NCBI RefSeq assembly: GCF_009796785.1
Contig: NZ_CP047026.1
Location: forward strand, 3,206,501-3,270,500
DNA from: Polaribacter sp. L3A8
GTDB lineage: Bacteria > Bacteroidota > Bacteroidia > Flavobacteriales > Flavobacteriaceae
Length of the DNA: 64,000 nucleotides
Direction of reading: 5' to 3'
Below the pieces are notes generated by a model. It did no database searches. It saw only the letters and a program-made list of their open reading frames with translations, and was not told the origin of the DNA. Below, piece by piece: positions 40,852-57,828 of the stretch (positions are counted from its first letter, which is position 1; every line of letters begins with the position of its first letter). Both the position numbers and the translations under genes were made by a program.

Positions 40852-40863
40852 TGATTTTAATCA
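40852..40863. promoter_or_regulatory. FNR-type palindrome upstream of the 43-aa protein gene
   Basis: TGAT-TTTA-ATCA, a perfect palindrome equal to the core of the FNR consensus TTGAT-N4-ATCAA. Its centre (40857.5) is 33 bp upstream of the centre of a TAnnTTTG element, placing it near -41, as for a class II activator. Confidence 0.65.
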
Positions 40864-40886
40864 TATGTTAATTTATCCTTATATAT

Positions 40887-40894
40887 TAATTTTG
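40887..40894 (+). promoter_or_regulatory. Promoter -7 element for the 43-aa protein gene
   Basis: TAATTTTG fits TAnnTTTG exactly, 20 bp before the ATG at 40914. Confidence 0.6.
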
Positions 40895-40913
40895 GATTTA
40901 AAATTAGACGAAT

Positions 40914-41045
40914 ATGAATTTTTTGAATATACCACAGGTCTCTTGGGTTAACGGTACAGTCATGATTGGTGTTTTTGCACTGGTTGTTATAGGTTTGGTT
41001 GTAGCTGTTTATTTATTGATGACCACAGATAAAAAAGCAAAATAG
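40914..41045 (+). CDS. Small single-pass membrane protein (43 aa)
   Basis: A 43-aa ORF too short for most gene callers. It starts MNFLNIPQVSWVNGTVMIG, has one strong hydrophobic helix (about residues 16-36) and ends in a basic tail TDKKAK, which predicts an N-out, C-in single-pass protein. Support comes from an FNR-type box and a consensus -7 element in ordered spacing just upstream and from sitting right before a Crp/Fnr regulator gene. I do not recognise the family. It may be a small partner of a respiratory complex, but that is inference only. Confidence 0.6.
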   Translation: MNFLNIPQVSWVNGTVMIGVFALVVIGLVVAVYLLMTTDKKAK

Positions 41046-41217
41046 ATCTTATAACAAATTAATTTTAAAATGTTGTATAAATAATTTGAATTATTTTTTG
41101 TTCAGAAAATATTAGCGTAGTTTGATTACGTTTCTATTTTATATTGAAATATGGACGAAAAAGAAACATAATTATATGCCACATTTTAATGCTAGTTTGG
41201 TATTAAAGTTTTTATAT

Positions 41218-41243
41218 AAGCCTGAGTTAATCTCGGGCTTTTA
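41218..41243 (+). terminator. Terminator-like hairpin between the 43-aa gene and the Crp/Fnr gene
   Basis: The stem aagcctgag / ctcgggctt (one G-T pair) with loop ttaat is followed by a short TTTA. It sits 172 bp after the small gene and 53 bp before the regulator start, so it may end the small transcript or attenuate the regulator. The T-run is weak. Confidence 0.5.
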
Positions 41244-41296
41244 TGGTTGCAATAAAATTCATTTCATTATTTTTATAGTTGAAAAAACAAGTAATA

Positions 41297-41929
41297 ATGA
41301 TAAGTACGTTAGAAAGTAATTTTGGATACCTTTTTGAGAAAGAATTAATTTTAGAAATTCAAGAATTAGGAATTTCTAAAGATTTTAAAGAAGATGTTAC
41401 TATTATTGAGGTTGGAGATTATATAAAATCGATGCCTTTATTAATTTCGGGTGCTATTAAAATTCTTAGAGAAGATGAAAAAGGAGATGAAATTGTTTTA
41501 TATTATTTAGAAAAAGGAGATACTTGTGCCATGACCCTTTCTTGCTGTATGGGGCAAACTAAAAGTAAAATTAGAGCAGTTGCAGAAACAAATGTAGAGT
41601 TGATTATGTTGCCAAAAGAAAAAATGGCAGAATGGTTGGGGAAATATAAAACGTGGCAGGCTTATATTTTACAAACCTATCACAATAGGATGGATGAACT
41701 TTTAGAAGCTTTAGATACTATTGCTTTTTTAAAAATGGATGAACGTCTTTTTAAATACTTAAAAGACAAAGCTATGGTTACTCATAGTGATCTTTTAAAT
41801 GTTACACATAAAGAAATTTCAGAAGATTTACATACCTCTAGAGTTGTTATATCTCGATTGCTAAAAAAATTAGAAAATGAGGATAAAATCAAACTTTTTA
41901 GAAATAGTATTAAAGTCTTAGAACTGTAA
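41297..41929 (+). CDS. Crp/Fnr family transcriptional regulator
   Basis: A 210-aa regulator. ATG 41297 is chosen; an in-frame TTG lies 18 bp upstream. The cNMP-binding-like domain (residues 10-115) carries Cys77, Cys83 and Cys84 in DTCAMTLSCCMG, a motif I have seen in Bacteroidota members, but no N-terminal Fe-S Cys cluster like FNR. The winged HTH has the helix pair HKEISEDL and TSRVVISRLLKKL. Where CRP has Arg180-Glu181 and FNR has Glu209, this protein has Arg182-Val183, so its DNA target should differ. Five Crp/Fnr-like palindromes with fixed promoter spacing lie within 17 kb, one right after the gene. It may sense redox state or haem; the ligand is unknown. Confidence 0.9.
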   Translation: MISTLESNFGYLFEKELILEIQELGISKDFKEDVTIIEVGDYIKSMPLLISGAIKILREDEKGDEIVLYYLEKGDTCAMTLSCCMGQTKSKIRAVAETNVELIMLPKEKMAEWLGKYKTWQAYILQTYHNRMDELLEALDTIAFLKMDERLFKYLKDKAMVTHSDLLNVTHKEISEDLHTSRVVISRLLKKLENEDKIKLFRNSIKVLEL

Positions 41930-41940
41930 CATTAGTTACT
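41925..41940. promoter_or_regulatory. Crp/Fnr-type palindrome upstream of the cytochrome c gene
   Basis: TGTAAC-ATTA-GTTACT, a 5-bp perfect palindrome with a 4-bp spacer, overlapping the end of the regulator gene. Its centre (41932.5) is 33 bp from the centre of the -7 element at 41962. Confidence 0.7.
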
Positions 41941-41961
41941 GAATAATAATAAAATACATGC

Positions 41962-41969
41962 TATTTTTG
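41962..41969 (+). promoter_or_regulatory. Promoter -7 element for the cytochrome c-thioredoxin pair
   Basis: TATTTTTG, an exact TAnnTTTG match, 13 bp before the start at 41982. Confidence 0.65.
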
Positions 41970-41981
41970 TAATAAAAATAG

Positions 41982-42971
41982 ATGAAATTTTTAACTTTAT
42001 TTATAGCAGTGGCTTTTATTTTTGGATGTAAAGATGCTAAAAAGTCTCCTTCTTATTCTAAAAAATCAGTTTCAGAAACACAAGAACATATTGGTAAAAA
42101 GTTAATGGAAACAAACTGTTATGTTTGCCATAATGCTACAACACCAGAAGATAATCGAATTGCACCACCAATGATTGCCATTAAAAAACGTTATTTAATG
42201 GGACATGCTACAAAAGCTGCATTTATAGCATCGATGCAAAATTGGATTAAAAATCCGACCAAAGAAAACGCTATTATGTATGGTGCCGTACAACGTTTTG
42301 GTTTGATGCCTAAACAGGCTTTCCCAGAAGAAACGATTCAGCAGATTGCAGATTATATGTTTGAGTCTGAAATAGAAAAACCCGTATGGTTTGATGAGCA
42401 TTACAATCAACAACATGGAAATGGAAGAGGAAATGGAAACGGAATGCAAGGGCCGTTGCAAGGTGCTAATTTAAAAAACTTATCATACAATGAAAAGGGA
42501 TTAAAGTATGCATTAGCTACCAAAAGTGTTTTGGGTAAAAACTTAATGGGTACAATTCAAAAAAAAGGAACCTTAGCAGCATTAAAATTTTGTAATGTAA
42601 AAGCGTATCCTTTAACAGATAGTATGTGTTTAGTGTATAAAACAAATATAAAAAGAGTTTCAGACAAACCAAGAAACGTAAACAACACAGCTAACAGTTT
42701 AGAGAAAGGATATATTACTGTTTTTAAAAAAGAGGCACAATTAAATAAAGAGTCTAAACCGATTGTTGTTGAATCTGCAGAAAATGTAAATTTTTATTAT
42801 CCAATTAAAACAAGTAGTATGTGTTTGCAATGTCATGGTACACCAACTTCAGATATTAAAAACACTACTTTAGCACAAATAAATAAGTTGTATCCAAATG
42901 ACTTAGCGATTGGTTATAAAGAAAATCAAGTAAGAGGAATTTGGAGTATTACTTTTAATAAACAAATATAA
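41982..42971 (+). CDS. Lipoprotein fusing a cytochrome c domain to a DUF3365 (Tll0287-like) haem domain
   Basis: A 329-aa lipoprotein (lipobox FIFGC, Cys16). The first part (about residues 35-130) is a monohaem cytochrome c with Cys46, Cys49 and His50 in CYVCH and a Met in FGLMPKQAF. A Gly/Asn-rich linker follows near residues 145-160. The second part (about residues 170-328) matches DUF3365, with CLQCH at Cys281-His285. Such domains are often haem sensors or electron carriers in the periplasm. The gene has its own Crp/Fnr-type box and promoter, and thioredoxin starts 11 bp after it. A role in redox sensing or anaerobic electron transfer is an inference. Confidence 0.85.
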   Translation: MKFLTLFIAVAFIFGCKDAKKSPSYSKKSVSETQEHIGKKLMETNCYVCHNATTPEDNRIAPPMIAIKKRYLMGHATKAAFIASMQNWIKNPTKENAIMYGAVQRFGLMPKQAFPEETIQQIADYMFESEIEKPVWFDEHYNQQHGNGRGNGNGMQGPLQGANLKNLSYNEKGLKYALATKSVLGKNLMGTIQKKGTLAALKFCNVKAYPLTDSMCLVYKTNIKRVSDKPRNVNNTANSLEKGYITVFKKEAQLNKESKPIVVESAENVNFYYPIKTSSMCLQCHGTPTSDIKNTTLAQINKLYPNDLAIGYKENQVRGIWSITFNKQI

Positions 42972-42982
42972 AATTCTTAGGC

Positions 42983-43282
42983 ATGAGTAGTTTTACAGAA
43001 ATAATAAATCAAGATAAAGCTGTTTTAGTAGACTTTTTTGCAGAATGGTGCGGACCTTGTAAAACAATGAGCCCTATTTTAAAAGAAGTAAAAGATACTT
43101 TGGGAAATAAGGTTTCTATTATTAAAATTGATGTTGATAAAAATCAATCTTTAGCAGCAAAATACCAAGTAAGAGGTGTACCCACTTTAATATTATATAA
43201 ATCTGGTAAACAAGTTTGGAGGCAATCTGGAGCTGTACAAAAGGCAGCACTAATTACTGTTATAAATAATGCTAATAATTAA
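42983..43282 (+). CDS. Thioredoxin
   Basis: A 99-aa cytoplasmic thioredoxin with the active site WCGPC (Cys23, Cys26) and the cis-Pro loop VRGVPTLILYKSG. No signal peptide, so it acts inside the cell. It sits 11 bp after the haem lipoprotein and is probably on the same Crp/Fnr-controlled transcript. Length is a little shorter than E. coli TrxA but normal for Bacteroidota. Confidence 0.94.
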   Translation: MSSFTEIINQDKAVLVDFFAEWCGPCKTMSPILKEVKDTLGNKVSIIKIDVDKNQSLAAKYQVRGVPTLILYKSGKQVWRQSGAVQKAALITVINNANN

Positions 43283-43306
43283 TTATTATAAGTACAATAT
43301 AGTTAT

Positions 43307-43338
43307 AAGCATCTAAAATTATTTAGATGCTTTTTTTA
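43307..43338. terminator. Bidirectional terminator between thioredoxin and nadB
   Basis: Stem aagcatctaaa / tttagatgctt, T-run to the right, A-rich to the left. It overlaps the nadB stop and separates the two convergent genes. Confidence 0.9.
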
Positions 43339-44922: not shown

Positions 44923-44932
44923 TTTTAAGGTG

Positions 44933-45928: not shown

Positions 45929-45955
45929 AAAAAATGTTTATTTTGAACTAGTGTG

Positions 45956-45963
45956 CAAATATA
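45956..45963 (-). promoter_or_regulatory. Promoter -7 element for nadA-nadB
   Basis: CAAATATA reads TATATTTG on the minus strand, an exact TAnnTTTG match 27 bp before the nadA start. Confidence 0.6.
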
Positions 45964-46032
45964 AACTCTATTTTGTTGCTAAGAAAATGATTGACCTCAT
46001 TCTATTAAATATTGATTATAATTTACTATAAA

Positions 46033-46611
46033 ATGAAATTTTCAGAAGCCTTTTGGGAAAAAAAATATACGAATAATAAGATTGGTTGGGATTTAGGAGA
46101 AGTGTCACCACCATTAAAAACGTATTTTGATCAACTAATAAACAAGAATTTAAAAATTCTAATTCCAGGTGGTGGAAATTCTTATGAAGCAGAATACCTT
46201 TTTAACAATGGTTTTAAAAATGTTTATGTGGTTGATGTTTCTAAAATTCCTTTAGAAAACTTAAAAAAGAGAGCTCCTGCGTTTCCATCAGAACAACTAA
46301 TTCATGCTAATTTTTTTGATGTCGAAACTACTTTTGATTTGGTGATAGAGCAAACTTTCTTTTGTGCTATAGATCCACTTTTAAGAGAAAAGTATGCGTT
46401 AAAAATGCATCACTTATTAAGAGCTAAGGGTAAATTGGTAGGTTTGCTTTTTGATGCAAAACTAAATGAAGATCATCCACCTTTTGGTGGAAGTAAAAAA
46501 GAGTATTTAAATTATTTTAAGCCATTTTTTAAAATACAGAAAATGGATTCTTGTTATAATTCGTATCCTAATAGAGTAGAAATGGAGTTATTTATAAAGT
46601 TAGAAAAGTAA
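46033..46611 (+). CDS. SAM-dependent methyltransferase of the thiopurine S-methyltransferase family
   Basis: A protein of 192 aa from ATG 46033; an in-frame TTG 21 bp upstream is ignored. The N-terminal WEKKYTNNKIGWDLGEVSPPL motif marks the TPMT family, and ILIPGGGNSYEAEYL is the SAM-binding loop. Relatives methylate thiols, halides or tellurite, so the natural substrate is uncertain. It is read towards cydA but the cyd promoter region lies between them. Confidence 0.88.
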   Translation: MKFSEAFWEKKYTNNKIGWDLGEVSPPLKTYFDQLINKNLKILIPGGGNSYEAEYLFNNGFKNVYVVDVSKIPLENLKKRAPAFPSEQLIHANFFDVETTFDLVIEQTFFCAIDPLLREKYALKMHHLLRAKGKLVGLLFDAKLNEDHPPFGGSKKEYLNYFKPFFKIQKMDSCYNSYPNRVEMELFIKLEK

Positions 46612-46629: not shown

Positions 46630-46645
46630 TGTGATAAATGTTACA
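46630..46645. promoter_or_regulatory. Crp/Fnr-type palindrome upstream of cydA
   Basis: TGTGAT-AAAT-GTTACA, an imperfect palindrome with one half like CRP/FNR (GTGAT) and one like the GTTACA half of the other boxes. Its centre is 32 bp from the centre of the putative -7 element at 46666, one bp less than elsewhere. Confidence 0.6.
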
Positions 46646-46665: not shown

Positions 46666-46673
46666 TATTTTTA
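46666..46673 (+). promoter_or_regulatory. Putative promoter -7 element for cydAB
   Basis: TATTTTTA differs from TAnnTTTG only at the last base and lies 18 bp before the cydA start. Confidence 0.5.
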
Positions 46674-46690: not shown

Positions 46691-48022
46691 ATGGAAGACA
46701 TGCTCTTTTATGATCGATTGCAATTTGCATTTACGATTACTTTCCACTACATATTTCCGCAATTAACAATGGGATTGTCATTAATGATTGTTTTCTTTAA
46801 ATGGAAATATTTAAGAAATAATGACGAAAAATATAACAATGCAGCCAAATTTTTTATGAAAATTTTTGCTGTTAATTTTACAATGGGTGTTGTCACAGGA
46901 ATTCCGATGGAATTTCAATTTGGTACCAATTGGGCAAAATTTTCTGAACTAACAGGAGGTATTATTGGTCAGACTTTGGCAATGGAAGGGATGTTTTCTT
47001 TCTTTCTAGAATCGTCTTTTTTAGCGCTCTTTATTTTTGGAGAAAAATTAATGGGACAAAAACTCCATTTTTTAACAGGTTTCTTAGTGTTTTTAGGTTC
47101 TTGGGCAAGTGGTTGGTTTATTTTAGCAACCAATGCTTGGATGCAACATCCTGTAGGTTATGAGGTTTTAGAGAACGGTAAATTCGTATTAGAAAACTTT
47201 TCTGCACTGTTTACAAACCCATGGTTGTTGCCTGCTTTTTTACATAATCAATTGGCATCAGTGGTAACTTCTTCTTTTGTAGTAGCAAGTATTGGTGCTT
47301 TTTACCTTTTAAGAAAAAAACAAGTTGAATACGGAAAGCTATTTTTAAAAACAGGAGTAATTTTTGGTTTAGTGTCAAGTCTTTTAGTGGCTTTTCCTAC
47401 AGGAGATTGGAATGCCAAAAACGTAGCTAAATATCAACCAGCTGCTTTTGCGGCTATGGAAGGAATTTTTGAAACCGAAGAAGCCGGAGCAGAAATTGTT
47501 TTGGTTGGTCAGCCAAATATGGTTGAAAAAAAATTAGATAATAAAATTGCAGTACCAAACATTTTAAGTTTTTTAACGCACCAAGATTGGAATAAACAAA
47601 TTCCGGGAATGGATCAATTTAAAAAAGAAGAATTGCCAGACAATATACCGGCGCTTTATTATTCTTATCATATAATGGTTGGTTTAGGTACTATTTTTAT
47701 TGGTGTTATGTTACTTTCACTTTTCTTTTTATGGCGCAGAAAATTGTATACTTTAAAACCCTTACTTTGGGTAATTATGTTTTTAGTACCGTTTCCATAC
47801 ATTGCAAATCTTACGGGTTGGTACACAGCAGAATTAGGTAGGCAACCTTATTTGGTGTATGGCTTATTAAAAACAAGCGATGGTATTTCGCCAACGGTTT
47901 CATCGGGTAATACTTTATTCACTTTACTAGGGTTTGTTGCTTTATATATGCTACTAGGTTTGTTATTTTTAGTTTTAGTTGGTAAAACGATTAATGAAGG
48001 TCCTAAACATCAAAAACATTAA
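46691..48022 (+). CDS. cydA: Cytochrome bd quinol oxidase subunit I
   Basis: A 443-aa haem-bearing subunit of the high-affinity bd oxidase that reduces O2 at low tension without pumping protons. His19 (haem b595 ligand in FHYIFP), the AMEGMFSFFLESSF segment with the two conserved Glu, the FLHNQLASV His region and GRQPYLVYG are all present. The Q-loop is short, as in the S-type subfamily. It is followed by cydB after 3 bp, and a Crp/Fnr-type box precedes it. Confidence 0.96.
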   Translation: MEDMLFYDRLQFAFTITFHYIFPQLTMGLSLMIVFFKWKYLRNNDEKYNNAAKFFMKIFAVNFTMGVVTGIPMEFQFGTNWAKFSELTGGIIGQTLAMEGMFSFFLESSFLALFIFGEKLMGQKLHFLTGFLVFLGSWASGWFILATNAWMQHPVGYEVLENGKFVLENFSALFTNPWLLPAFLHNQLASVVTSSFVVASIGAFYLLRKKQVEYGKLFLKTGVIFGLVSSLLVAFPTGDWNAKNVAKYQPAAFAAMEGIFETEEAGAEIVLVGQPNMVEKKLDNKIAVPNILSFLTHQDWNKQIPGMDQFKKEELPDNIPALYYSYHIMVGLGTIFIGVMLLSLFFLWRRKLYTLKPLLWVIMFLVPFPYIANLTGWYTAELGRQPYLVYGLLKTSDGISPTVSSGNTLFTLLGFVALYMLLGLLFLVLVGKTINEGPKHQKH

Positions 48023-48025
48023 ACT

Positions 48026-49099
48026 ATGGAAATTTTCTGGTACATTATAATAGCAATTGTTTTAGCAGTATTTTTTATTTTAGATGGGTATGATTTTGGT
48101 ACAGGAATCATTCATCTGTTTTTTGCTAAAAAAGAAAAAGATAAAGAAGTAATTGCAAAATCTGCAGGTTTGTTTTGGGATTCTAATGAGGTTTGGTTAG
48201 TTGCCGCTGGTGGAATGCTTTTTATGGCCTTCCCTACTTTTTATGCATCTGTTTTTAGTGGTTTCTATTTGCCATTAATCATTGTTCTATGGTTAATTAT
48301 TTTTAGAGCGATTGGGTTAGAATTTAGAAGTCAGTTTCATTTTCAAATGTGGAAAGACATTTGGGACAAATCATTTGGAGTTTCTAGTTTACTGTTAGCA
48401 TTGTTTTTTGGAATTGCCTTAGGGAATATTGTAAGAGGTGTAAATTTAGGTGGTGTAGAAAATGGAGTTTCTGTTTACGAAGGGCATTATTTTTTCTTGC
48501 CATTGTGGGACAGTAGTTTTAGTCCATTAACAGAACACCCTGGAGTTATAGACTGGTTTACTATTGTTATTGGTTTAATTTCTGTGGTTACTTTATCAAT
48601 TCATGGTGCTAATTGGGTTATTTTAAAAACCAATTCATCTATTAATAAAAAACTAAAAGGCGTTATTTTTAATTTGAATATTGTGTTAGCAGTTCTTACT
48701 GTTTTTTCTTTATTCGTTTGGCAAATAGTGAATCCTAATTCTTTGTATAATTTTGTTGATAAACCCTACTTTATGGTATTTCCTATTATTTATTTAACAG
48801 GAATCATGGGCTTGTTTTTTATCAAAAAAATAAAAAAAGATATTTATGGATTTGTATTCTCTACTTTATTAATTTTAGGAGGAATTACATCTTCATTGGC
48901 ATCTTTATTCCCTGTTTTACTACCTTCTGTTAATGATATTAATGAGCCTTTAACTATTTATAACACTACCACGTCTGAATACGGATTGTCTGTTGCTTTA
49001 ACTTGGGGAGTTATTGGGTTTATCCTACTTTTTGTATATATGATTATTCAAAAAAGATTAATGGGTGGTAAGGTTGATAAAATGGATTACGGACATTAG
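48026..49099 (+). CDS. cydB: Cytochrome bd quinol oxidase subunit II
   Basis: A 357-aa polytopic partner of CydA with about eight or nine transmembrane helices. The N-terminal FFILDGYDFGTGIIHLFFAK and SNEVWLVAAGGMLFMAFP are hallmarks of CydB. It starts 3 bp after cydA, and a small membrane protein follows after 15 bp. No CydX-type small subunit of the E. coli kind is obvious. Confidence 0.95.
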   Translation: MEIFWYIIIAIVLAVFFILDGYDFGTGIIHLFFAKKEKDKEVIAKSAGLFWDSNEVWLVAAGGMLFMAFPTFYASVFSGFYLPLIIVLWLIIFRAIGLEFRSQFHFQMWKDIWDKSFGVSSLLLALFFGIALGNIVRGVNLGGVENGVSVYEGHYFFLPLWDSSFSPLTEHPGVIDWFTIVIGLISVVTLSIHGANWVILKTNSSINKKLKGVIFNLNIVLAVLTVFSLFVWQIVNPNSLYNFVDKPYFMVFPIIYLTGIMGLFFIKKIKKDIYGFVFSTLLILGGITSSLASLFPVLLPSVNDINEPLTIYNTTTSEYGLSVALTWGVIGFILLFVYMIIQKRLMGGKVDKMDYGH

Positions 49100-49426: not shown

Positions 49427-49464
49427 ACATGATATAAGTCATCTTATTTGTTTACAGTTCATTA

Positions 49465-49472
49465 TACATTTG
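49465..49472 (+). promoter_or_regulatory. Promoter -7 element for the TetR-ABC exporter operon
   Basis: TACATTTG, an exact TAnnTTTG match, 31 bp before the TetR start and directly beside the operator-like palindrome at 49473. Confidence 0.65.
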
Positions 49473-49488: not shown

Positions 49489-49503
49489 ACTATTTAGTTG
49501 ATA

Positions 49504-50115
49504 ATGAAAAATAAGAAAAACGAAAACACCGAAAGTTTAATTTTAGAAGCTGCAAAATCCATTTTTCAAACAAAAGGGATGGATGGTGCTCGTATGCAAG
49601 AAATTGCAGATGAAGCGGATATTAACAAAGCCATGCTTCACTATTATTATAGAAGTAAACAGTTGCTTTTTGAGGCCGTTTTTAAAAATGCATTTTCATT
49701 ATTAGCTCCGCAATTAAATACCATTTTAAATGATGATTCCTCTATAGAGGATAAGGTGAGACATTTTTCATCAAACTATATTTCATTTATAGCAGAACAT
49801 CCTTATCTGCCAAATTTTATTATTCAAGAATTGAATAGAAATCCTGATTTCATTTTAAAAATGAAGGAAAGTAGTGCGTTTCCAAGTCTTGAAAAGTTTA
49901 GAAAACAAGTTGATTTTGAAGTAAAAAAAGGCAATATCAAAAAGATAAATGCAGCACAATTGTTTATTAATATTTTGGCTTTAAATGTATTTCCCTTTAT
50001 AGCAAAACCATTAATTCAAAACTTGATAGATGCAGATGATATAACATTTCAACAAATAATAGAAGAGCGCAAAACTGCGGTTGCAGATTTTATTATTAAT
50101 TCAATAAAAATATAA
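49504..50115 (+). CDS. TetR/AcrR family transcriptional repressor
   Basis: A protein of 203 aa from ATG 49504; an in-frame TTG 6 bp earlier is less likely. The N-terminal HTH (about residues 8-55) reads SLILEAAKSIFQTKGMDGAR, then MQEIADEADINKAMLHYYYRSKQLLF, as in TetR proteins. The C-terminal ligand domain resembles that of regulators of YbhFSR-type exporters. It is first in the exporter operon with the tolC-like gene 1 bp after it, so it most likely controls its own operon through the palindrome at 49473. The inducer is unknown. Confidence 0.92.
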   Translation: MKNKKNENTESLILEAAKSIFQTKGMDGARMQEIADEADINKAMLHYYYRSKQLLFEAVFKNAFSLLAPQLNTILNDDSSIEDKVRHFSSNYISFIAEHPYLPNFIIQELNRNPDFILKMKESSAFPSLEKFRKQVDFEVKKGNIKKINAAQLFINILALNVFPFIAKPLIQNLIDADDITFQQIIEERKTAVADFIINSIKI

Positions 50116-50116
50116 G

Positions 50117-51367: not shown

Positions 51368-51370
51368 ATA

Positions 51371-51446
51371 CGCCGCAAATTTCGCAGATCTACGAAGATA
51401 AAAAGTTTGCAAAAAAAATCAGCGATAATCTGTGAAATCAGTGGAA
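51371..51446. repeat. Hairpin repeat (CGCAGAT family), copy 1
   Basis: The left arm has cgccgcaaatttcgcagatc and the right arm ends gataatctgtgaaatcagtg. The arms pair imperfectly. It separates tolC and hlyD of the exporter operon, where the gap is 102 bp. Confidence 0.75.
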
Positions 51447-51469
51447 AAAAAATAAAAAAAAGAACTAAA

Positions 51470-52360
51470 ATGAAAAAATACACTCACATATTAATAGTAA
51501 GCATTATTGCCACAACATTATTTTCTTGCGTAAAAGACAATGGAAAAGCAGATGGTTATGGGAATTTTGAAGCTACAGAAATAATCATTTCTGCAGAAAA
51601 CAACGGAAAACTAATTCAGTTTACTATTGATGAAGGCGATCAACTTAAAAAAGATCAATTTGTAGGTTATATAGATACTGTACAATTGGCTTTAAAACGA
51701 GAACAATTAATGGTATCTAAATCTGTAATTAGTTCAAAATCTAAAGGAGTATTGTCACAAATTTCTGTGTTAAATTCCAAATTAAAAGCTGTCAGAATTA
51801 ATAAAGTTAGAATAGAAAACTTAATTAAAGATAATGCAGGTACACAGAAGCAACTCGATGACGTTTCCGGAGAAATAGATGTTATTAAAAGTCAGATTAA
51901 GAGTGTAGAAATTCAGAATGCACCTGTTGTGAATGAGCTAAAATCTATCGATGTTCAATTGAAACAAATTGATGATCAAATTCAGAAAAGTAAAATTATT
52001 AATCCCGCAAACGGAACCGTTTTAACCAAATATGCAGAGCCAAATGAAATTACTTCTTTTGGAAAATCTTTATATAAAATTGCAGATTTAAGTACGATGG
52101 AATTGCGTGTTTATATTAGTGAAACGCAATTGGCAAATATTAAAATAAGACAAAAAGTTACCGTTAAAATTGATGCTACAGATACAATGAAATCTTTTGA
52201 AGGTGTTGTTAGTTGGATTGCTTCTGAAGCAGAGTTTACACCTAAAATTATTCAAACCAAAGAAGAGCGCGTTGCCTTGGTATATGCTGTAAAAATTAAT
52301 GTTGCAAACGATGGAAGTTTAAAAATAGGGATGCCAGCAGAAATGTGGTTAAACAATTAA
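51470..52360 (+). CDS. HlyD family periplasmic adaptor (lipoprotein)
   Basis: A protein of 296 aa from ATG 51470. The ORF could open at a TTG at 51407, but that lies in the repeat and the ATG gives a clean lipoprotein signal (lipobox TLFSC, Cys17). The lipoyl half-domains (NFEATEIIISAENNGKLI and later INPANGTVLTKYAEPNEI) flank a long coiled coil (about residues 75-165). It is the likely adaptor (YbhG-like) linking the ABC-2 pump with TolC. A small lipoprotein gene follows after 32 bp. Confidence 0.9.
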   Translation: MKKYTHILIVSIIATTLFSCVKDNGKADGYGNFEATEIIISAENNGKLIQFTIDEGDQLKKDQFVGYIDTVQLALKREQLMVSKSVISSKSKGVLSQISVLNSKLKAVRINKVRIENLIKDNAGTQKQLDDVSGEIDVIKSQIKSVEIQNAPVVNELKSIDVQLKQIDDQIQKSKIINPANGTVLTKYAEPNEITSFGKSLYKIADLSTMELRVYISETQLANIKIRQKVTVKIDATDTMKSFEGVVSWIASEAEFTPKIIQTKEERVALVYAVKINVANDGSLKIGMPAEMWLNN

Positions 52361-52392
52361 GTTAATAATTATAATCAATAAAAATAAAGACA

Positions 52393-52830
52393 ATGAAACA
52401 ATTATTTTTAACAATCATACTCATAACTTTAGTAAGTTGTAAAGACGGTAAAAAGGAAGTTTCTATTGAAACCAATGGCGTGTATTCTAATACTTGGGTC
52501 AAAGAAATTAAGTTAAATAATGGTGATAAATGGTTAGCTAATTCAGAAACGAATGAAGGCATTTTAAAAATGAAAAAAAGCCTTAAAAAAGCATCTACAA
52601 ATACGTTAGAGGAATATTATCAATTGGCAGAAAAACTTAATAATGATAAGAATTACGTGATAAAAAATTGCTCAATGAAAGGTGATTCACATGATAATTT
52701 ACACATTTGGCTTTTACCATTAATGGCAAAAATTGATGCACTTTCTAAAACAAAAACTACTGAAGATGCCGCAAAATTGAAACAAAGTATCGAGGATAGT
52801 ATTAATGCATATGCTGATTATTTTGAATAA
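52393..52830 (+). CDS. Lipoprotein of unknown function inside the ABC exporter operon
   Basis: A 145-aa predicted lipoprotein (lipobox ITLVSCKDG, Cys16). The mature part is helical and has a notable block NCSMKGDSHDNLHIWLLPLM (about residues 95-114) with Cys, Met and two His that could bind a metal such as copper. I recall similar short proteins in Bacteroidota but cannot name a characterised family. It is followed directly (0 bp) by the first ATPase gene, so it is clearly within the operon and may modulate the pump or carry its substrate. Confidence 0.75.
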   Translation: MKQLFLTIILITLVSCKDGKKEVSIETNGVYSNTWVKEIKLNNGDKWLANSETNEGILKMKKSLKKASTNTLEEYYQLAEKLNNDKNYVIKNCSMKGDSHDNLHIWLLPLMAKIDALSKTKTTEDAAKLKQSIEDSINAYADYFE

Positions 52831-53733
52831 ATGAGTATTACAATTAGTAACATATCAAAATCGTATAAAAAAGTAAAAGCTTTAGAAAACATTTCTTTTA
52901 CAGTGAAACCGGGTGAACTTTTTGGGTTAATTGGTCCGGATGGAGCAGGTAAAACAACTTTGTTTAGAGTTTTAACTACGCTTTTAATTGCCAATGAAGG
53001 TACTGCGAGTGTTGCTAGTTTTGATGTAATTACAGACTATAAAAGTATTAGAAAGAATGTGGGTTATATGCCTGGGAAATTTTCTTTGTATCAAGATTTA
53101 ACCGTTGAGGAGAATTTGAATTTTTTTGCTACCATTTTTGGAACAACGATCGAAGAAAATTACGATTTAATTAAAGATATTTATATTCAAATAGCACCTT
53201 TTAAAAATAGAAGAGCAGGGAAATTATCTGGAGGAATGAAACAGAAATTAGCTTTGTGTTGTGCCTTAATTCACAAGCCAAAAGTGTTGTTTTTAGATGA
53301 ACCTACAACGGGAGTTGACCCAGTTTCTAGAAAAGAATTTTGGGAAATGTTAAAACGATTGCAGCAAAAGGGGATTACTATTTTGGTTTCTACGCCATAC
53401 ATGGATGAAGCAGCTTTGTGTGACAGAATTGCCTTAATTCAGGCTGGGAAAATTTTAGAAATAGATACGCCACAAGCCATTGTAAAACAGTATCCAAAAC
53501 AAATTTACAATGTAGGTGCTAATAATATGTATCAGCTTATTAATAGTTTAAAGGAGTATAAACACAATCATAGTGTGTATCCTTTTGGAGAATTTGTACA
53601 TTATACAGATGGTAGGTCAGATTTTAATCCAACGGAGTTAGAAACATTTTTAAAGTCTAAAAACCTAACCAATATCAGCATAGAAAAAACAGCCCCAACG
53701 ATTGAAGATACTTTTATGGAATTAGCAAAATAA
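52831..53733 (+). CDS. ABC transporter ATPase, first (YbhF N-terminal-half-like)
   Basis: A 300-aa ABC ATPase of the ABC-2/DrrA type. Walker A is GPDGAGKTT (near residue 37), the signature is LSGGMKQK and Walker B with the catalytic Glu is LFLDEPTTGVDP; all are intact. The C-terminal region (about residues 220-300) is extra. In E. coli the YbhF protein carries two such ATPases in one chain; here they are two genes. It begins immediately after the lipoprotein stop. Confidence 0.93.
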   Translation: MSITISNISKSYKKVKALENISFTVKPGELFGLIGPDGAGKTTLFRVLTTLLIANEGTASVASFDVITDYKSIRKNVGYMPGKFSLYQDLTVEENLNFFATIFGTTIEENYDLIKDIYIQIAPFKNRRAGKLSGGMKQKLALCCALIHKPKVLFLDEPTTGVDPVSRKEFWEMLKRLQQKGITILVSTPYMDEAALCDRIALIQAGKILEIDTPQAIVKQYPKQIYNVGANNMYQLINSLKEYKHNHSVYPFGEFVHYTDGRSDFNPTELETFLKSKNLTNISIEKTAPTIEDTFMELAK

Positions 53734-53735
53734 GT

Positions 53736-53760
53736 ATCAGTTAGAGCGCAGTGGAGAACT
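53736..53760. repeat. Degenerate half of a gagcgcagt-type repeat
   Basis: The segment agttagagcgcagtggagaa resembles the right arm of the hairpin at 59165-59217 (tcgagcgcagtcgaga) with a few changes. It sits in the 74-bp gap between the two ATPase genes and may be a decayed copy. Confidence 0.4.
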
Positions 53761-53807
53761 ATTTTGAATATCAAGACTGGGTTCAATGATACAAAACAGA
53801 AAAAATA

Positions 53808-54536
53808 ATGAGTAGTAACAATGTTATAGAAGTAGAAGGGTTAACCAAAACATTTGGAGATTTTACTGCTGTGAATGCTATTTCTTTTGAAGTTGAAAAA
53901 GGAGAGATTTTTGGTTTTTTAGGTGCAAATGGAGCAGGTAAAACAACGGCTATGAAAATGCTGATTGGTATTTCTAAGCCAACTTCTGGAGCTGCAAAAG
54001 TTGCTGGTTTTGATGTATACACACATGCCGAAGATATTAAAAAAAACATTGGTTATATGAGTCAGAAATTTGCTTTGTATGACGATTTAACGGTGAAAGA
54101 AAACATTACTTTTTTTGGTGGAATTTACGGTTTGTCTAGAAAAATAATCAAAGAAAAATCTGAAATTTTAATAGCAGAATTAGGCTTAGAAAGTGTTGCT
54201 AAAAAATTAGTAGGTTCATTACCGTTGGGTTGGAAACAAAAATTATCGTTTTCTGTGTCTTTGCTTCACGATCCAAAAATTGTGTTTTTAGACGAACCCA
54301 CAGGTGGCGTAGATCCGATTACAAGGCGTCAGTTTTGGGAATTGATTTACAAAGCTGCCCATCAAGGAACCACCGTTTTTGTAACGACACATTATATGGA
54401 TGAAGCAGAATATTGCGATCGTGTTTCCATAATGGTAAACGGAAAAATAGAAGCTTTAGATACTCCGAAGAAATTGAAAGAACAATTTAAGGTTGATAAT
54501 ATGAATGACGTGTTTTTAAAATTGGCTAGAGGATGA
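53808..54536 (+). CDS. ABC transporter ATPase, second (YbhF C-terminal-half-like)
   Basis: A 242-aa ABC ATPase. Walker A is GANGAGKTT and Walker B is VFLDEPTGGVDP, but the signature reads LPLGWKQK instead of LSGGxxQ. In my memory the second ATPase of the YbhF group carries a similar LPLG signature, so this is probably a subfamily trait and not a defect. It likely forms a heterodimer with the first ATPase. The gap of 74 bp before it holds a decayed repeat. Confidence 0.92.
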   Translation: MSSNNVIEVEGLTKTFGDFTAVNAISFEVEKGEIFGFLGANGAGKTTAMKMLIGISKPTSGAAKVAGFDVYTHAEDIKKNIGYMSQKFALYDDLTVKENITFFGGIYGLSRKIIKEKSEILIAELGLESVAKKLVGSLPLGWKQKLSFSVSLLHDPKIVFLDEPTGGVDPITRRQFWELIYKAAHQGTTVFVTTHYMDEAEYCDRVSIMVNGKIEALDTPKKLKEQFKVDNMNDVFLKLARG

Positions 54537-54544
54537 GAAATAGT

Positions 54545-54570
54545 ATTCAGTCACAGTAGCAGTATTCAGT
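54545..54570 (+). repeat. CAGT-rich short repeat tract
   Basis: attcagtcacagtagcagta and a following ttcagt. Similar CAGT tracts occur at 56454-56471 and 60311-60358, and the 7-bp tandem array at 32026 is of the same style (AGTAAGC). Confidence 0.5.
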
Positions 54571-54617
54571 AAAAAAAACAATAACGTTTATCCGCGAAAG
54601 AAAAAAAGTAAAAAACG

Positions 54618-54702
54618 TTGCCCGCTGAAAACGCAGATTTGAGCATAAAAATGACATACATTGATAAAAAAATCTGCGATTAACTATTGAATTAGTGGGA
54701 GT
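54618..54702. repeat. Hairpin repeat (CGCAGAT family), copy 2
   Basis: The left arm cccgctgaaaacgcagattt (54621-54640) pairs imperfectly with a right arm starting aaatctgcgatt and ending attagtggga. It lies between the second ATPase and the GxxExxY gene. Confidence 0.75.
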
Positions 54703-54784
54703 ATAACTAAAAAAGAAGAATGTTCCGTTTTTATAATTAAAGGGATAATGAGAAAAAGTTTACGGCAGAGCTAAATAAAAAAGT

Positions 54785-54816
54785 TTCTCGTAGATAACGC
54801 AGGTTTACGCGGATAA
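54785..54816. repeat. Hairpin repeat (CGCAGAT family), copy 3, left arm only
   Basis: ctcgtagataacgcaggttt then acgcggat: only a left arm, 20 bp before the GxxExxY ATG. It is a close direct repeat of the left arm of copy 4 on the other side of the gene (AGATAACGCAG and TTTACG shared). Confidence 0.75.
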
Positions 54817-54836
54817 AATGAAAAAAAGAAACAGTT

Positions 54837-55223
54837 ATGGAAGAAAAAACAGAAAATGAAATATCTTATATAATTAGAGGAGCAATTTTTAAGGTCTATA
54901 ATGAATTAGGTCCAGGTTTGTTAGAATCAGTTTACGAAACTGTTTTATCCTACGAATTAGAAAATGAAGGTTTATCCGCTAAAAGACAAGTAATATTACC
55001 AATATTTTATGATGACATTAAACTCGATAATGGTTATAGATTAGATTTATTAGTAAATGATAAGGTAATAATAGAAATAAAATCTGTAGAAAAATTAGCA
55101 AAAGTACATCATAAACAAGTACTTACTTATTTAAAACTATCAGGTTTAAAATTAGGAATATTAGTCAATTTTAATGAAGACAATATCACAAAAGGTATTT
55201 TTAGAAAAGTAAATGGATTATAA
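54837..55223 (+). CDS. GxxExxY family protein, PD-(D/E)XK nuclease-like
   Basis: A 128-aa protein named by its motif, here Gly27-Leu-Leu-Glu30-Ser-Val-Tyr33. It also has Asp70 in GYRLDLLV and Glu80-x-Lys82 in IIEIKSVEKL, the pattern of a PD-(D/E)XK nuclease core, followed by HHKQVLTYLKL and GILVNFN. No activity is established to my knowledge. It interrupts the ABC exporter operon between the second ATPase and the first permease and is bracketed by a half copy (54785) and a full copy (55228) of the same hairpin repeat. This suggests it arrived as part of a repeat-borne unit and is unrelated to transport. Confidence 0.9.
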   Translation: MEEKTENEISYIIRGAIFKVYNELGPGLLESVYETVLSYELENEGLSAKRQVILPIFYDDIKLDNGYRLDLLVNDKVIIEIKSVEKLAKVHHKQVLTYLKLSGLKLGILVNFNEDNITKGIFRKVNGL

Positions 55224-55227
55224 AAAG

Positions 55228-55305
55228 TGTCCCGAAGATAACGCAGATTTACGTAGAAAATAACTGTAAAAAAATTCTGCGCTAATCTGTGAAATCAGCG
55301 GGAGA
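55228..55305. repeat. Hairpin repeat (CGCAGAT family), copy 4
   Basis: The left arm cccgaagataacgcagattt and the right arm ttctgcgctaatctgtgaaa then tcagcggga pair over a long imperfect stem. It starts 5 bp after the GxxExxY stop and ends 27 bp before the permease gene. Confidence 0.8.
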
Positions 55306-55332
55306 TGTATCCACAGAAGAAAAAAATATTAA

Positions 55333-56439
55333 ATGAAAAGATTTATAGGCTTCATAAAAAAAGAATTTTACCATATTTTTAGGGATAGACGCTCGTTGTT
55401 TATTCTCTTCGGGATGCCAATTGCTCAAATTATGCTATTTGGTTTTGCAATTACCAACGAAATCAATAATGTAGATATTGCTATTTTAGATCACTCTAAA
55501 GATGCAACTACAGCAGAAATTATTCATAAAATTGCTGCTTCAAAATATTTTAGTATCAAACAAATTATAGAAAAAGAAGCTGATATAGAAACTATCTTTA
55601 AAAAAGGACATGTAAAAGCTGTTTTAAACTTTGAAAAAGACTTTAGTAAAAACCTTTTGAAAGAAAATAAAGCAACTATTCAAATTATTACGGATGCTAC
55701 AGATCCTAACACTGCCAATACCATCAGCAATTTTGTAAATGCAATACTTCAAAAATATCAGAAGGAATTAAATAAAGACATTACAATTGCCTATCAAATT
55801 ATACCAGAAACACGTATGGTTTACAATCCAGAATTAAAAAGTGTGTATATGTTTGTTCCTGGAGTTATGACTATTATTTTAATGCTGGTTTCTGCAATGA
55901 TGACTTCTATTTCAATTACCAAAGAAAAGGAATTAGGAACCATGGAAATACTTTTAGTATCGCCTTTAAAACCATTTCAAGTAATCATCGGTAAGGTATT
56001 TCCTTATATTTTTCTGTCTATTATTAATGCTATTGTAATTGTCTTGCTAAGTATTTTTATATTTAAAATGCCTGTTCAGGGAAGCTTTTTGCTCTTAGGT
56101 TTAGAAAGTGTTTTATTTATTATTTCAGCTTTGGCTTTAGGTATTCTAATTTCAACAATTTCGGCAACACAGCAAACTGCCATGATGATTTCTTTAATGG
56201 GGTTAATGCTACCTGTAATTTTATTATCTGGCTTTATATTTCCTATAACAAGCATGCCTTTACCGTTACAAATTATTAGTAACATTATTCCTGCAAAATG
56301 GTTTATCATCATCATAAAAGGCATTATGCTTAAAGGTGTTGGAATTGAATATGTTTGGAAAGAAACTTTAATTTTATTAGGAATGACAGTGTTTTTTATT
56401 GCATTAAGTGTTAAGAAATATAAAATTAGGTTAGAGTAA
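55333..56439 (+). CDS. ABC-2 type permease, first (YbhS-like)
   Basis: A 368-aa inner-membrane permease. It has one N-terminal helix (about residues 20-40), a periplasmic domain (about 45-170) and five helices in the C-terminal half, the layout of ABC-2 exporters of the YbhS/YhhJ type. EKELGTMEILLVSPLKPFQ is the cytoplasmic coupling segment. Its paralogue follows after 39 bp. Separation from the ATPase genes by the GxxExxY insert is secondary. Confidence 0.92.
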   Translation: MKRFIGFIKKEFYHIFRDRRSLFILFGMPIAQIMLFGFAITNEINNVDIAILDHSKDATTAEIIHKIAASKYFSIKQIIEKEADIETIFKKGHVKAVLNFEKDFSKNLLKENKATIQIITDATDPNTANTISNFVNAILQKYQKELNKDITIAYQIIPETRMVYNPELKSVYMFVPGVMTIILMLVSAMMTSISITKEKELGTMEILLVSPLKPFQVIIGKVFPYIFLSIINAIVIVLLSIFIFKMPVQGSFLLLGLESVLFIISALALGILISTISATQQTAMMISLMGLMLPVILLSGFIFPITSMPLPLQIISNIIPAKWFIIIIKGIMLKGVGIEYVWKETLILLGMTVFFIALSVKKYKIRLE

Positions 56440-56453
56440 AATAGATAACAATA

Positions 56454-56471
56454 TTCAGTTCTCAGTAAGCG
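56454..56471 (+). repeat. CAGT-rich short repeat
   Basis: attcagttctcagtaagc in the 39-bp gap between the two permease genes. It contains AGTAAGC, the unit of the 32026 tandem array read on the minus strand. Confidence 0.4.
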
Positions 56472-56478
56472 GTAAAAT

Positions 56479-57600
56479 ATGAAAACAATTCTATACATTA
56501 TACAAAAGGAGTTTAAGCAAATCTTTAGAAATAAGGGGATGCTTCCAATTATTTTTGTTTTACCATTACTGCAACTGGTTATTTTATCTAATGCGGCTAC
56601 TTTTGAAGTAAAGAATATTAAATTTGGTTATATAGATAATGATCATACAGCAACTTCAAGAGCATTAATAGAAAAATTTAATGCTTCTACCTATTTTAAT
56701 GTATTAACAGATTTCCCTTCAGAAGCATTGGCTAGTTCTGCGATGCTAAAAGGCGAGGTAGATGTCCTTTTACAAATTCCACACTATTTTGAACGAGATT
56801 TACAAAAAGAAAAATACAATAAATTAGGGGTTACACTTAATGCCATTGATGGTGCAGCAGCTGGAGTAGAAAATGTATATGTAACTCAGATTGTACAACG
56901 TTTTAATCAACATTTAAAAATAGATCTTGTACAAATTTCAGACAAACAAATACAACCTGTTAGCATAGAAACGATCCCTTTATTTTGGTATAATAAAACA
57001 TTGAACTATAAAACATTTATGGTTCCCGGAATACTTGTTTTATTGGTAACTATGATTACTTTGTTTTTATCAGGAATGAATGTTGTTCGCGAAAAAGAAA
57101 TAGGAACCTTAGAGCAAATAAATGTAACTCCAATTAAAAAGAGTCAGTTTATAATTGGTAAACTTTTTCCGTTTTGGGTTATTGGAATGGGCTTATTAAC
57201 GGTTGGACTAATTTTAGCAAAAGTTATTTTTAACGTCCCTATGATTGGTAGTTTACCACTTATGTACTTATACACGTCTATTTATATTTTGGTGATTTTA
57301 GGCATTGGGTTATTCATTTCTAATTTTACAGACACACAGCAACAAGCCATGTTTATTGCTTGGTTTTTTACCGTTATCTTTATTTTAATGAGCGGTTTGT
57401 TTACCCCCATAGAAAGTATGCCAAAATGGGCGCAAGTGGTTACTGAGTTTAACCCCATAAAATATTTTGTTGAGGTAATGCGTATGGTCATGTTAAAAGG
57501 TTCTGGTTTTACAGATATTTTTCCGCAGTTATTAAAAACGTTGTTTTATGCTGTAATTATGAATGGTTTAGCTGTTTGGAGTTATAAGAAAACAAACTAA
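56479..57600 (+). CDS. ABC-2 type permease, second (YbhR-like)
   Basis: A 373-aa permease with the same layout as its neighbour: N-terminal helix, periplasmic domain and five or six C-terminal helices, with coupling segment EKEIGTLEQINVTPIKKSQF. It should pair with the first permease and two ATPases to form the pump. It is the last gene of the TetR operon. The gene order TetR-TolC-HlyD-lipoprotein-ATPase-ATPase-permease-permease parallels E. coli ybiH-ybhGFSR, with a split ybhF and added TolC and lipoprotein. The substrate is unknown. Confidence 0.92.
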   Translation: MKTILYIIQKEFKQIFRNKGMLPIIFVLPLLQLVILSNAATFEVKNIKFGYIDNDHTATSRALIEKFNASTYFNVLTDFPSEALASSAMLKGEVDVLLQIPHYFERDLQKEKYNKLGVTLNAIDGAAAGVENVYVTQIVQRFNQHLKIDLVQISDKQIQPVSIETIPLFWYNKTLNYKTFMVPGILVLLVTMITLFLSGMNVVREKEIGTLEQINVTPIKKSQFIIGKLFPFWVIGMGLLTVGLILAKVIFNVPMIGSLPLMYLYTSIYILVILGIGLFISNFTDTQQQAMFIAWFFTVIFILMSGLFTPIESMPKWAQVVTEFNPIKYFVEVMRMVMLKGSGFTDIFPQLLKTLFYAVIMNGLAVWSYKKTN

Positions 57601-57608
57601 AATATTTG

Positions 57609-57624
57609 TGTAACATAAGTTACT
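57609..57624. promoter_or_regulatory. Crp/Fnr-type palindrome, first of two upstream of the second RND operon
   Basis: TGTAAC-ATAA-GTTACT, nearly identical to the box at 57784. Its centre (57616.5) is exactly 33 bp from the centre of the -7-like element at 57646. Confidence 0.65.
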
Positions 57625-57645
57625 GTGTAGGTTTTAAATTGAATT

Positions 57646-57653
57646 TATCTTTA
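57646..57653 (+). promoter_or_regulatory. Putative -7 element of a small-RNA promoter
   Basis: TATCTTTA differs from TAnnTTTG only in the last base and has the same spacing to its Crp/Fnr box as the other promoters. Confidence 0.5.
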
Positions 57654-57659
57654 CTAATC

Positions 57660-57775
57660 ATTATAAATTTTGAGACAGAAAAGTAAATTGATGTGGTTAT
57701 CAGTTTTAGTTGGTTAAAGATGTTGGTTGGTTTCAATATCTTGAAAAAAAGAGAGCTTTATGCTCTCTTTTTGTT
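57660..57775 (+). ncRNA. Candidate Crp/Fnr-controlled small RNA (about 115 nt)
   Basis: No convincing ORF lies between the promoter at 57609-57653 and the terminator at 57744-57773; the only ATG-started frames are 8 and 22 codons with poor composition. A transcript from about 57660 to the T-run would be roughly 115 nt and end in a stable hairpin. The next operon's own box and promoter begin only after the terminator. This layout recalls the FNR-activated sRNA FnrS of enterobacteria, but no sequence homology is claimed. The start point is inferred from promoter spacing. Confidence 0.45.
57744..57773 (+). terminator. Rho-independent terminator before the second RND operon
   Basis: Stem aaagagagc / gctctcttt, loop tttat, T-run after it. 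It lies 144 bp after the last ABC permease gene and could end both that operon and the candidate small RNA. Confidence 0.92.
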
Positions 57776-57783
57776 TTATAGCA

Positions 57784-57799
57784 TGTAACATAAGTTACA
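57784..57799. promoter_or_regulatory. Crp/Fnr-type palindrome upstream of the second RND operon
   Basis: TGTAACATAAGTTACA, a perfect 6-bp palindrome with spacer ATAA, the best box in the window. Its centre (57791.5) is exactly 33 bp from the centre of the -7 element at 57821. Confidence 0.75.
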
Positions 57800-57820
57800 G
57801 ACCACCATGTATTCTAAACT

Positions 57821-57828
57821 TACTTTTG
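57821..57828 (+). promoter_or_regulatory. Promoter -7 element for the second RND operon
   Basis: TACTTTTG, an exact TAnnTTTG match, 22 bp before the start at 57850. Confidence 0.7.

Follow-up and report, generated by a model that had tools for sequence, protein, structure and literature searches.

A Crp/Fnr-type regulator gene and palindromic boxes in a Polaribacter genome

The window analyzed here, a stretch of 64,000 nucleotides at positions 3206501-3270500 of the 4.22-Mb single-contig genome of Polaribacter sp. L3A8, encodes a Crp/Fnr-family regulator at 41297 (hereafter the 41297 protein) and contains six palindromic boxes, each followed at a nearly constant distance by a -7 element resembling TAnnTTTG. 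The 41297 protein is likely the activator of a reactive-sulfur (sulfide/persulfide) regulon that is widespread in Flavobacteriaceae. A first-pass annotation had grouped five of the palindromes, at 40852, 41925, 46630, 57609, and 57784, into one local regulon; all five are present in the sequence, and its centre distances, 33 bp in four cases and 32 bp in one (46630), were correct when measured again. Two classes of box are distinguished: class A, GTAAC-N4-GTTAC, and class B, TGAY-N4-RTCA. The regulator gene, the boxes, and their -7 elements are as follows.

41297..41929, + strand: Crp/Fnr-family regulator, 210 amino acids, with a cyclic nucleotide monophosphate (cNMP)-type domain, a helix-turn-helix domain, and the recognition helix SRVVISR
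40852..40863, + strand: class B box TGAT-TTTA-ATCA, TGATTTTAATCA, centre 40857.5, assigned to the other regulon
40887-40894, + strand: -7 element of the 40852 box, TAATTTTG, 33 bp
41925..41940, + strand: class A box TGTAAC-ATTA-GTTACT, TGTAACATTAGTTACT, centre 41932.5, overlapping the end of the regulator gene
41962..41969, + strand: -7 element of the 41925 box, TATTTTTG, 33 bp
46630..46645, + strand: half-degenerate box TGTGAT-AAAT-GTTACA, TGTGATAAATGTTACA, centre 46637.5, preceding cydAB
46666..46673, + strand: -7 element of the 46630 box, TATTTTTA, 32 bp, one mismatch to TAnnTTTG
49430..49472, + strand: sixth box, class B, TGATATAAGTCAT, with its -7 element TACATTTG (49465-49472), 33 bp
57609..57624, + strand: class A box TGTAAC-ATAA-GTTACT, TGTAACATAAGTTACT, centre 57616.5
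57646..57653, + strand: -7 element of the 57609 box, TATCTTTA, 33 bp, one mismatch to TAnnTTTG
57784..57799, + strand: class A box TGTAAC-ATAA-GTTACA, TGTAACATAAGTTACA, centre 57791.5, directly after a terminator
57821..57828, + strand: -7 element of the 57784 box, TACTTTTG, 33 bp

The class A box and its spacing

The GTAAC box followed by a -7 element at 33 bp, with up to two mismatches, has three matches in the window (41926, 57610, and 57785), compared to a mean of 0.12 in shuffled sequence, and none of 100 shuffles reached three; the 46630 box is too degenerate to count among them. Genome-wide, the box plus fixed-spacing -7 element has eight matches with zero or one mismatch (three exact and five with one mismatch) versus none for the reversed pattern; this is the kind of scan that the first-pass annotation had proposed. 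Exact GTAAC-N4-GTTAC occurs nine times in the genome versus six for the reversed word, and three of the nine lie within 16 kb in the window. The palindrome alone, with up to two mismatches, is mildly enriched (43 versus a shuffle mean of 27.3, with 0/100 shuffles reaching 43), and the box plus spacing at up to three mismatches shows no genome-wide enrichment (95 versus 131 reversed). The signal resides in the strict box at the strict spacing, and loose palindrome scans are of little use.

The same holds across the family. Orthologues of the 41297 protein were searched for with two seeds, one of them SRVV[IV]SR, and the regions around the best 80 of 578 confirmed matches were taken as 80 named loci (1.52 Mb). 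These loci contain 166 exact class A boxes, whereas the reversed word occurs 5 times and two further control palindromes occur once and 8 times; 74 of the 80 have at least one box. An exact box stands at the same place as the 41925 box in L080, L081, L082, and L092. An exact TAnnTTTG follows 87 oriented boxes at 33 bp and 0 to 2 boxes at any other distance from 20 to 49 bp. In these loci no 33-bp peak appears for palindromes of the CTAAG, GATAC, or TTGAT type at up to one mismatch. When the 87 promoters are aligned, the box is preceded by T in 71 and followed by T in 59 and G in 53, and the rest of the stretch up to the -7 element has no strongly conserved base. The TAnnTTTG element occupies positions -12 to -5 in Flavobacterium psychrophilum (PMC9723704). 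Since the box centre lies 33 bp from this element, that span, borrowed from F. psychrophilum, places the class A box at -41.5, the class II position that the first-pass annotation had proposed.

Boxes and regulator also go together over 249 Flavobacteriaceae genomes, in which box-promoters were counted with up to one mismatch. The 198 genomes with a strong orthologue contain 859 box-promoters, a mean of 4.34 per genome, and 194 of them have one or more; the 14 with a weak homologue contain 12. The 37 regulator-less genomes (no match at E 1e-20 or better, 17 of them inferred from absence from the match listing) contain 14, a mean of 0.38, and the 11 of these that measure 2.6 Mb or more contain 5. 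The reversed pattern gave 72 matches in the 212 genomes with a regulator match and 4 in the 37 without. The difference between 4.34 and 0.38 agrees with the earlier proposal that the 41297 protein reads GTAAC-N4-GTTAC, as an association only, because relatedness, genome size, and completeness are uncorrected.

Cysteines and recognition helix of the regulator

The 41297 protein belongs to the Crp/Fnr superfamily by PF00027 (42.4 bits) and PF13545 (30.6 bits), both above cut-off, and falls short of the CRP equivalog (56.7 bits versus 266) and the NtcA equivalog (52.1 bits versus 244.95). Its closest named orthologues are from Polaribacter at 88% identity, possibly with the source genome left out. 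Among 247 genomes drawn from the phylum, 87 have homologues at E 1e-30 or better, 27 of them in the family of the window, and the homologues listed outside this genome are 31-63% identical.

Cysteine occurs only at C77, C83, and C84. All three are invariant in 12 aligned orthologues, and the CX5CC pattern, a feature not used in finding the loci, is kept in 79 of the 80. In an alignment with CRP, this Cys-X5-Cys-Cys stretch falls on the phosphate-binding cassette, where CRP binds cAMP through Glu72 and Arg82; Met79 and Lys89 of the 41297 protein align to these two residues, so the cAMP contacts of the cassette are not kept. The [4Fe-4S] cluster of FNR uses four cysteines, three of them near the N terminus, and no such cluster is found in the full 210-residue sequence.

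In the recognition helix, Arg182 and Arg187 are retained and Val183 stands where CRP has Glu181. CRP contacts G2 of TGTGA through Arg180 and the G4:C4 pair through Glu181 and Arg185, and these published contacts (PMC11253593), together with the alignment, support the earlier argument that the Val-for-Glu replacement matters for base recognition. The class A site reads GTAAC, with A where the CRP site has G4. In old CRP genetics, a Glu181Val change is reported to make CRP prefer A:T at that pair. The genome has ten PF00027 matches, nine besides the 41297 protein, and eight of the nine (all but L018) were translated and compared. With the residues placed by eye, Glu stands at the CRP-181 place in three of these eight paralogues (L010, L011, and L013), and the Arg-Val pair occurs at the two contact places in none.

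Targets of the class A boxes

For target calling, box-promoters were allowed up to two mismatches and a distance of 32-34 bp; the open reading frames (ORFs) behind them were assigned automatically and clustered, and clusters were labeled from one or two representatives or by likeness to window proteins. The 80 loci contain 215 box-promoters, spread over 77 of them. The largest downstream clusters are persulfide dioxygenase (PDO)/rhodanese (63), TauE (36), the haem lipoprotein (19), and TolC (15), followed by YeeE, peroxiredoxin, and SQR-like proteins (8 each), cydA (7), SulP (6), and the regulator itself (5); the remaining clusters are each smaller. Sulfur clusters (PDO/rhodanese, TauE, YeeE, SQR-like, SulP, and sulfite-oxidase-like) account for 123 of the 215 box-promoters and occur in 60 of the 80 loci. 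The SQR-like proteins match type III SQR best, below its cut-off. PDO and rhodanese genes, as expected of a reactive-sulfur regulon, thus stand under the same site, and the recurring targets are sulfide and persulfide genes instead of the oxygen theme that the first-pass annotation had seen.

The window genes around the class A-type boxes are listed below.

41982..42971, + strand: c-type cytochrome lipoprotein with a Tll0287-like domain, a target
42983..43282, + strand: thioredoxin, second gene behind the 41925 promoter
46033..46611, + strand: TPMT-type S-methyltransferase, upstream of cydA, without a box here
46691..49099, + strand: cydA (46691-48022) and cydB (48026-49099), cytochrome bd oxidase
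57850-59160, + strand: outer-membrane efflux protein (TolC), first gene of the 57850..63743 run
to 60317, within 57850..63743, + strand: membrane-fusion-protein-like ORF, recognized by eye
60549-63743, + strand: RND-type permease, model matches below cut-offs

TolC orthologues carry an exact box and an exact -7 element at 33 bp in 15 of 15 cases, the window included. A class A-like box was found before 1 of 24 TPMT orthologues examined (L081). GTAAC promoters are spread across the genome and the family, and "local" does not describe the regulon. Further class A boxes in this genome precede a rhodanese gene (3424636) and a thioredoxin-fold gene (3738951); an exact box with a one-mismatch -7 element at 3537325 stands before the gene of a 795-residue protein without a Pfam match (L203 874-3258; G000:C1:3534870-3537257), and the box at 2673149 precedes a ruvB-sulP-PDO-rhodanese run. 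In L206, L208, and L209 a class A box lies before a 4Fe-4S protein (CIGCHACTTAC); in the two genomes for which a position was listed, this gene is some 1.1 kb downstream of the regulator.

Class B boxes form a second group

In the 80 loci plus the window, TGAY-N4-RTCA has an exact -7 element at 33 bp in 28 cases and in 0 to 3 at other distances from 22 to 45 bp. The pattern with its spacing matches twice in the window, compared to a shuffle mean of 0.14, and 2 of 100 shuffles reach two; it was picked only after the sites had been seen. Genome-wide there are ten exact matches versus none for the control. The 40852 box belongs to this class, which has targets of its own, and the grouping of the five palindromes into one regulon is not supported.

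Class B boxes precede a CcoS-like ORF followed by a COX1-family oxidase gene, a nitrite reductase-like copper-oxidase/cytochrome c protein, the TetR-type gene behind 49430, and the 43-residue ORF behind 40852; phosphotransacetylase-, epimerase-, porin-, fumarase-, phosphofructokinase-, and universal-stress-like genes were named by eye only. Class B looks like an FNR-like regulon that shares the class A geometry. At the canonical FNR sites, 525 oriented TTGAT-N4-ATCAA near-sites in the 80 loci and 56 TTGAY-N4-RTCAA sites, no exact -7 element lies at 33 bp. The class B box before the CcoS-like ORF and COX1-family oxidase (L239; G000:C1:1417550) lies about 5 kb from L010 (1422266). This Crp/Fnr paralogue, with Glu in its recognition helix, likely reads class B. 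Universal-stress-like proteins, recognized by eye, stand behind class B boxes at L127 (18609 and 19811) and L242, in one case next to a response regulator that carries a fused Crp domain (L013).

In the 46630 box, the left half fits class B (TGAT) and the right half fits class A (GTTAC); our guess is that this cydA box answers to both regulons. The 49430 box, absent from the first-pass list, precedes the TetR-type gene of the 49498-57600 run, and no such site was seen before two other TetR orthologues examined (L081 and L086). The small ORF behind the 40852 box is

40914..41045, + strand: membrane-type ORF of 43 amino acids, no Pfam match for the window copy

Of the 80 loci, 19 have homologues of 42-50 residues. 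Several of these homologues come with a TGAY box at 33 bp, and in L102, L111, and L130 they are near PDO or thioredoxin genes.

A predicted small RNA behind the 57609 box

The first-pass annotation took the stretch after the 57609 box to be gene-free. This box probably drives a predicted RNA of about 118 nucleotides that contains UUGGUUGG and ends in a terminator, and look-alikes are found elsewhere.

57658..57775, + strand: predicted small RNA, about 118 nucleotides, start placed by the published -12..-5 span of the -7 element
57723..57732, + strand: recurring stretch of the RNA, UUGGUUGGUU
57746..57772, + strand: intrinsic terminator, an 11-bp stem followed by a T-run; one found, shuffle mean 0.2

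The 57658-57775 sequence folds better than its shuffles (z = -4.87). Relatives hold about a dozen look-alikes. A terminator-like hairpin lies within 330 nucleotides of 29 of the 255 unique box-promoters. In 13 of the 29 no ORF of at least 40 codons runs through the hairpin, and 8 of the 13 carry TTGGTTG or GGTTGG; the eight count the window itself, in which the motif had first been spotted, and the close pairs L088/L096 and L139/L150, leaving about six independent cases. The background of GGTTGGT is 349 in 3.36 Mb on both strands; 16 occurrences are near a box, 9 of them in coding sequence (by eye) and 7 RNA-like. Further cases are L112, L114, L132, and L212-L214. Each of the 11 examples that were folded did better than its shuffles (z of -2.8 to -7.0), and their stem sequences differ. 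The RNA alignment (A2) consists of 11 RNAs; L096 (which nearly duplicates L088), L114 (whose spacer is longer), L211 (a repeat of L155), and L212/L215 were omitted, and the conserved stretch of L214 is misaligned. Scans of the 249 family genomes with box plus UUGGUUG patterns found 5 genomes each. Of the 11 scan loci read, five are RNA-like (L211-L215, with L212 and L215 being one place and L211 repeating L155), one is the window itself (L207), and five are coding matches and were discarded: TauE in L205, the 4Fe-4S protein in L206, L208, and L209, and SulP in L210. Rfam returned four matches at E up to 1 on 57400-57950, none reaching its gathering score.

The element mostly precedes rhodanese genes; in the window and L112 it precedes TolC. 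It may well be a leader that acts in cis as an attenuator, chiefly for rhodanese genes, instead of a trans-acting small RNA, a reading that we place somewhat short of an even chance. A rhodanese gene follows the terminator in L123, L132, L139, L150, L155, and L211-L214, and in those loci neither the listed sites nor the stretch that was read showed a second box. In the window, L085, L088, L096, and L112, however, a second box-promoter follows the terminator, so that the next gene needs no read-through; that gene is TolC in the window and L112. The free variation of the terminator stems also argues against an attenuator.

A model for the class A regulon and its alternatives

Motif, spacing, conservation, co-occurrence with the regulator, gene content, and the Cys and Val residues together point to one model. 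A dimer of the 41297 protein, we infer, would bind GTAAC-N4-GTTAC centred at -41.5 and, acting as a class II activator, contact RNA polymerase at promoters whose -7 element is TAnnTTTG. Genes activated in this genome would include the haem lipoprotein and thioredoxin, cydAB, the RND efflux operon, the rhodanese gene, the thioredoxin-fold gene, and the small RNA 57658-57775, and probably the ruvB-sulP-persulfide dioxygenase-rhodanese run. The Cys-X5-Cys-Cys in the place of the CRP cassette is probably a sensor of sulfane sulfur or of thiol oxidation, a signal suggested by the gene content and the cysteines. Val at the Glu181 place would make the protein read A where FNR-type paralogues read G, and this would separate class A from the TGAY-N4-RTCA regulon, also at -41.5.

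A more ambitious joint reading is tentative. A cNMP cassette may have been swapped for a Cys-X5-Cys-Cys persulfide switch, and a Glu-to-Val change may have split off a -41.5 regulon of its own, with the two classes about one base per half-site apart (TAAC versus TGAY). The result would be a family-wide command of sulfide detoxification, with cydAB shared with an oxygen regulon through the mixed-half box and a trans-acting small RNA whose UUGGUUGG seed silences genes under sulfide stress.

Several observations weigh against the class A model. Four of the nine exact palindromes in this genome sit inside coding sequence; one of the four, located at the end of a gene, has a one-mismatch -7 element at 33 bp. 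A box within 320 bp was found for only 16 of 37 lipoprotein orthologues and 9 of 16 cydA orthologues, even at up to three mismatches, in the comparison of orthologous promoters proposed earlier. Target identity partly reflects neighbourhood because the loci were chosen around the regulator, and the presence of SRVV[IV]SR in 80 of 80 loci is no evidence because that pattern seeded the search. The -7 element at 2673149 ends 5 nucleotides before the ruvB ATG, which makes the assignment of that run less sure. With SQR as a target, one SQR-like query gave only a partial match of 25% identity in this genome. Only 10 of 81 regulator genes have a class A or B box of their own, and the regulator gene of the window is not among them. 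Eight of the 37 regulator-less genomes keep at least one box-promoter, and one of them, 84% complete, has six; such genomes are often smaller and less complete, and the counts ignore relatedness. GTGAC-N4-GTCAC and TGTGA-N6-TCACA near-sites peak slightly at 33 bp (4 exact each), as would be expected of relatives of either site class, and the edge between the classes is imperfectly sharp.

The 41297 protein could instead be an oxygen- or nitric oxide-responsive FNR-type regulator, with the sulfur genes as passengers of a micro-oxic regulon. The Crp/Fnr architecture and the cydAB and haem/thioredoxin targets in the window fit this idea, but we find it unlikely: the cysteines at C77, C83, and C84 are unlike the N-terminal cluster of FNR, the COX1-family oxidase and nitrite reductase-like genes carry the class B box instead, and PDO, rhodanese, TauE, YeeE, SQR-like, and SulP genes recur as targets. 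An FNR-type reading of the GTAAC boxes was rejected, given the lack of a 33-bp peak for TTGAT-N4-ATCAA. It is about equally improbable that another regulator reads the boxes or that they serve as a repressor site overlapping -41.5. The genome has nine other PF00027 matches; yet the boxes crowd around the 41297-type gene and co-occur with it over the 249 genomes, the Arg-Val pair is absent from the eight translated paralogues, and a fixed -41.5 position with conservation only next to the box is the pattern of class II activation. That all five boxes form one regulon under one protein of relaxed specificity, as the first-pass annotation held, is very improbable, since the shared spacing, the mixed halves of the cydA box, and the small GTGAC- and TGTGA-type peaks are set against two motif classes with separate peaks and different genome-wide targets, and against Glu at the contact place in three of the eight translated paralogues.

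Comparison with known regulators

The class A regulator shares with class II activation by Escherichia coli CRP the domain layout, a palindromic site, a centre placed at -41.5, and the equivalents of Arg180 and Arg185, and differs in Val for Glu181, Met79 and Lys89 for Glu72 and Arg82, and three cysteines in the cassette. FNR and FNR-like proteins have the superfamily, the class II geometry, and bd oxidase among the targets in common with it, whereas the 41297 protein lacks the N-terminal cysteine cluster and the class A loci lack a peak of FNR-type sites; in this genome it is the TGAY-N4-RTCA class that takes the FNR-like part. In cyanobacterial NtcA, Arg-Val likewise occupies the two contact places. 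NtcA binds GTAN8TAC near -41.5 (PMC3898017), a site that resembles the class A box. However, NtcA controls nitrogen genes instead of sulfur genes, its aligned stretch has no Cys, and its model matches the 41297 protein at 52 bits, far below the 245-bit cut-off.

Control of sulfide and persulfide genes is a trait shared with CstR, SqrR/BigR, FisR, and OxyR. These belong to families other than Crp/Fnr: the first three are CsoR-, ArsR-, and Fis-type proteins, and OxyR is LysR-type. CstR, SqrR, and FisR use two or three conserved cysteines (PMC9774590). The reactive-sulfur regulator section of that review covers CsoR-, ArsR-, and Fis-type proteins, PigP, OxyR, LasR, and OhrR and names no Crp/Fnr protein, and the available parts of PMC12345210 and PMC11582611 name no Crp or Fnr. 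Crp of Acinetobacter baumannii is highly persulfidated under sulfide (PMC7315123). No Crp/Fnr regulator of sulfide genes in Bacteroidota was found in the literature searched, a weak negative, as coverage was partial and "Crp/Fnr" written with a slash could be missed.

Implications for Flavobacteriaceae

Flavobacteriaceae are major yet understudied members of marine, soil, and freshwater communities (PMC9723704). The model can be tested in one strain: the gene is named, the DNA site is defined and its spacing precise, and the targets are listed. If it is true, Crp/Fnr would join the regulator families that answer to reactive sulfur, a small RNA would be indicated within the reactive-sulfur response, and the two box classes would be an example from nature of regulons with identical geometry that are kept apart by a single recognition-helix residue. 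The rule that the box centre lies 33 bp from TAnnTTTG, seen within the family, may help to find activator-dependent promoters in other Bacteroidota.

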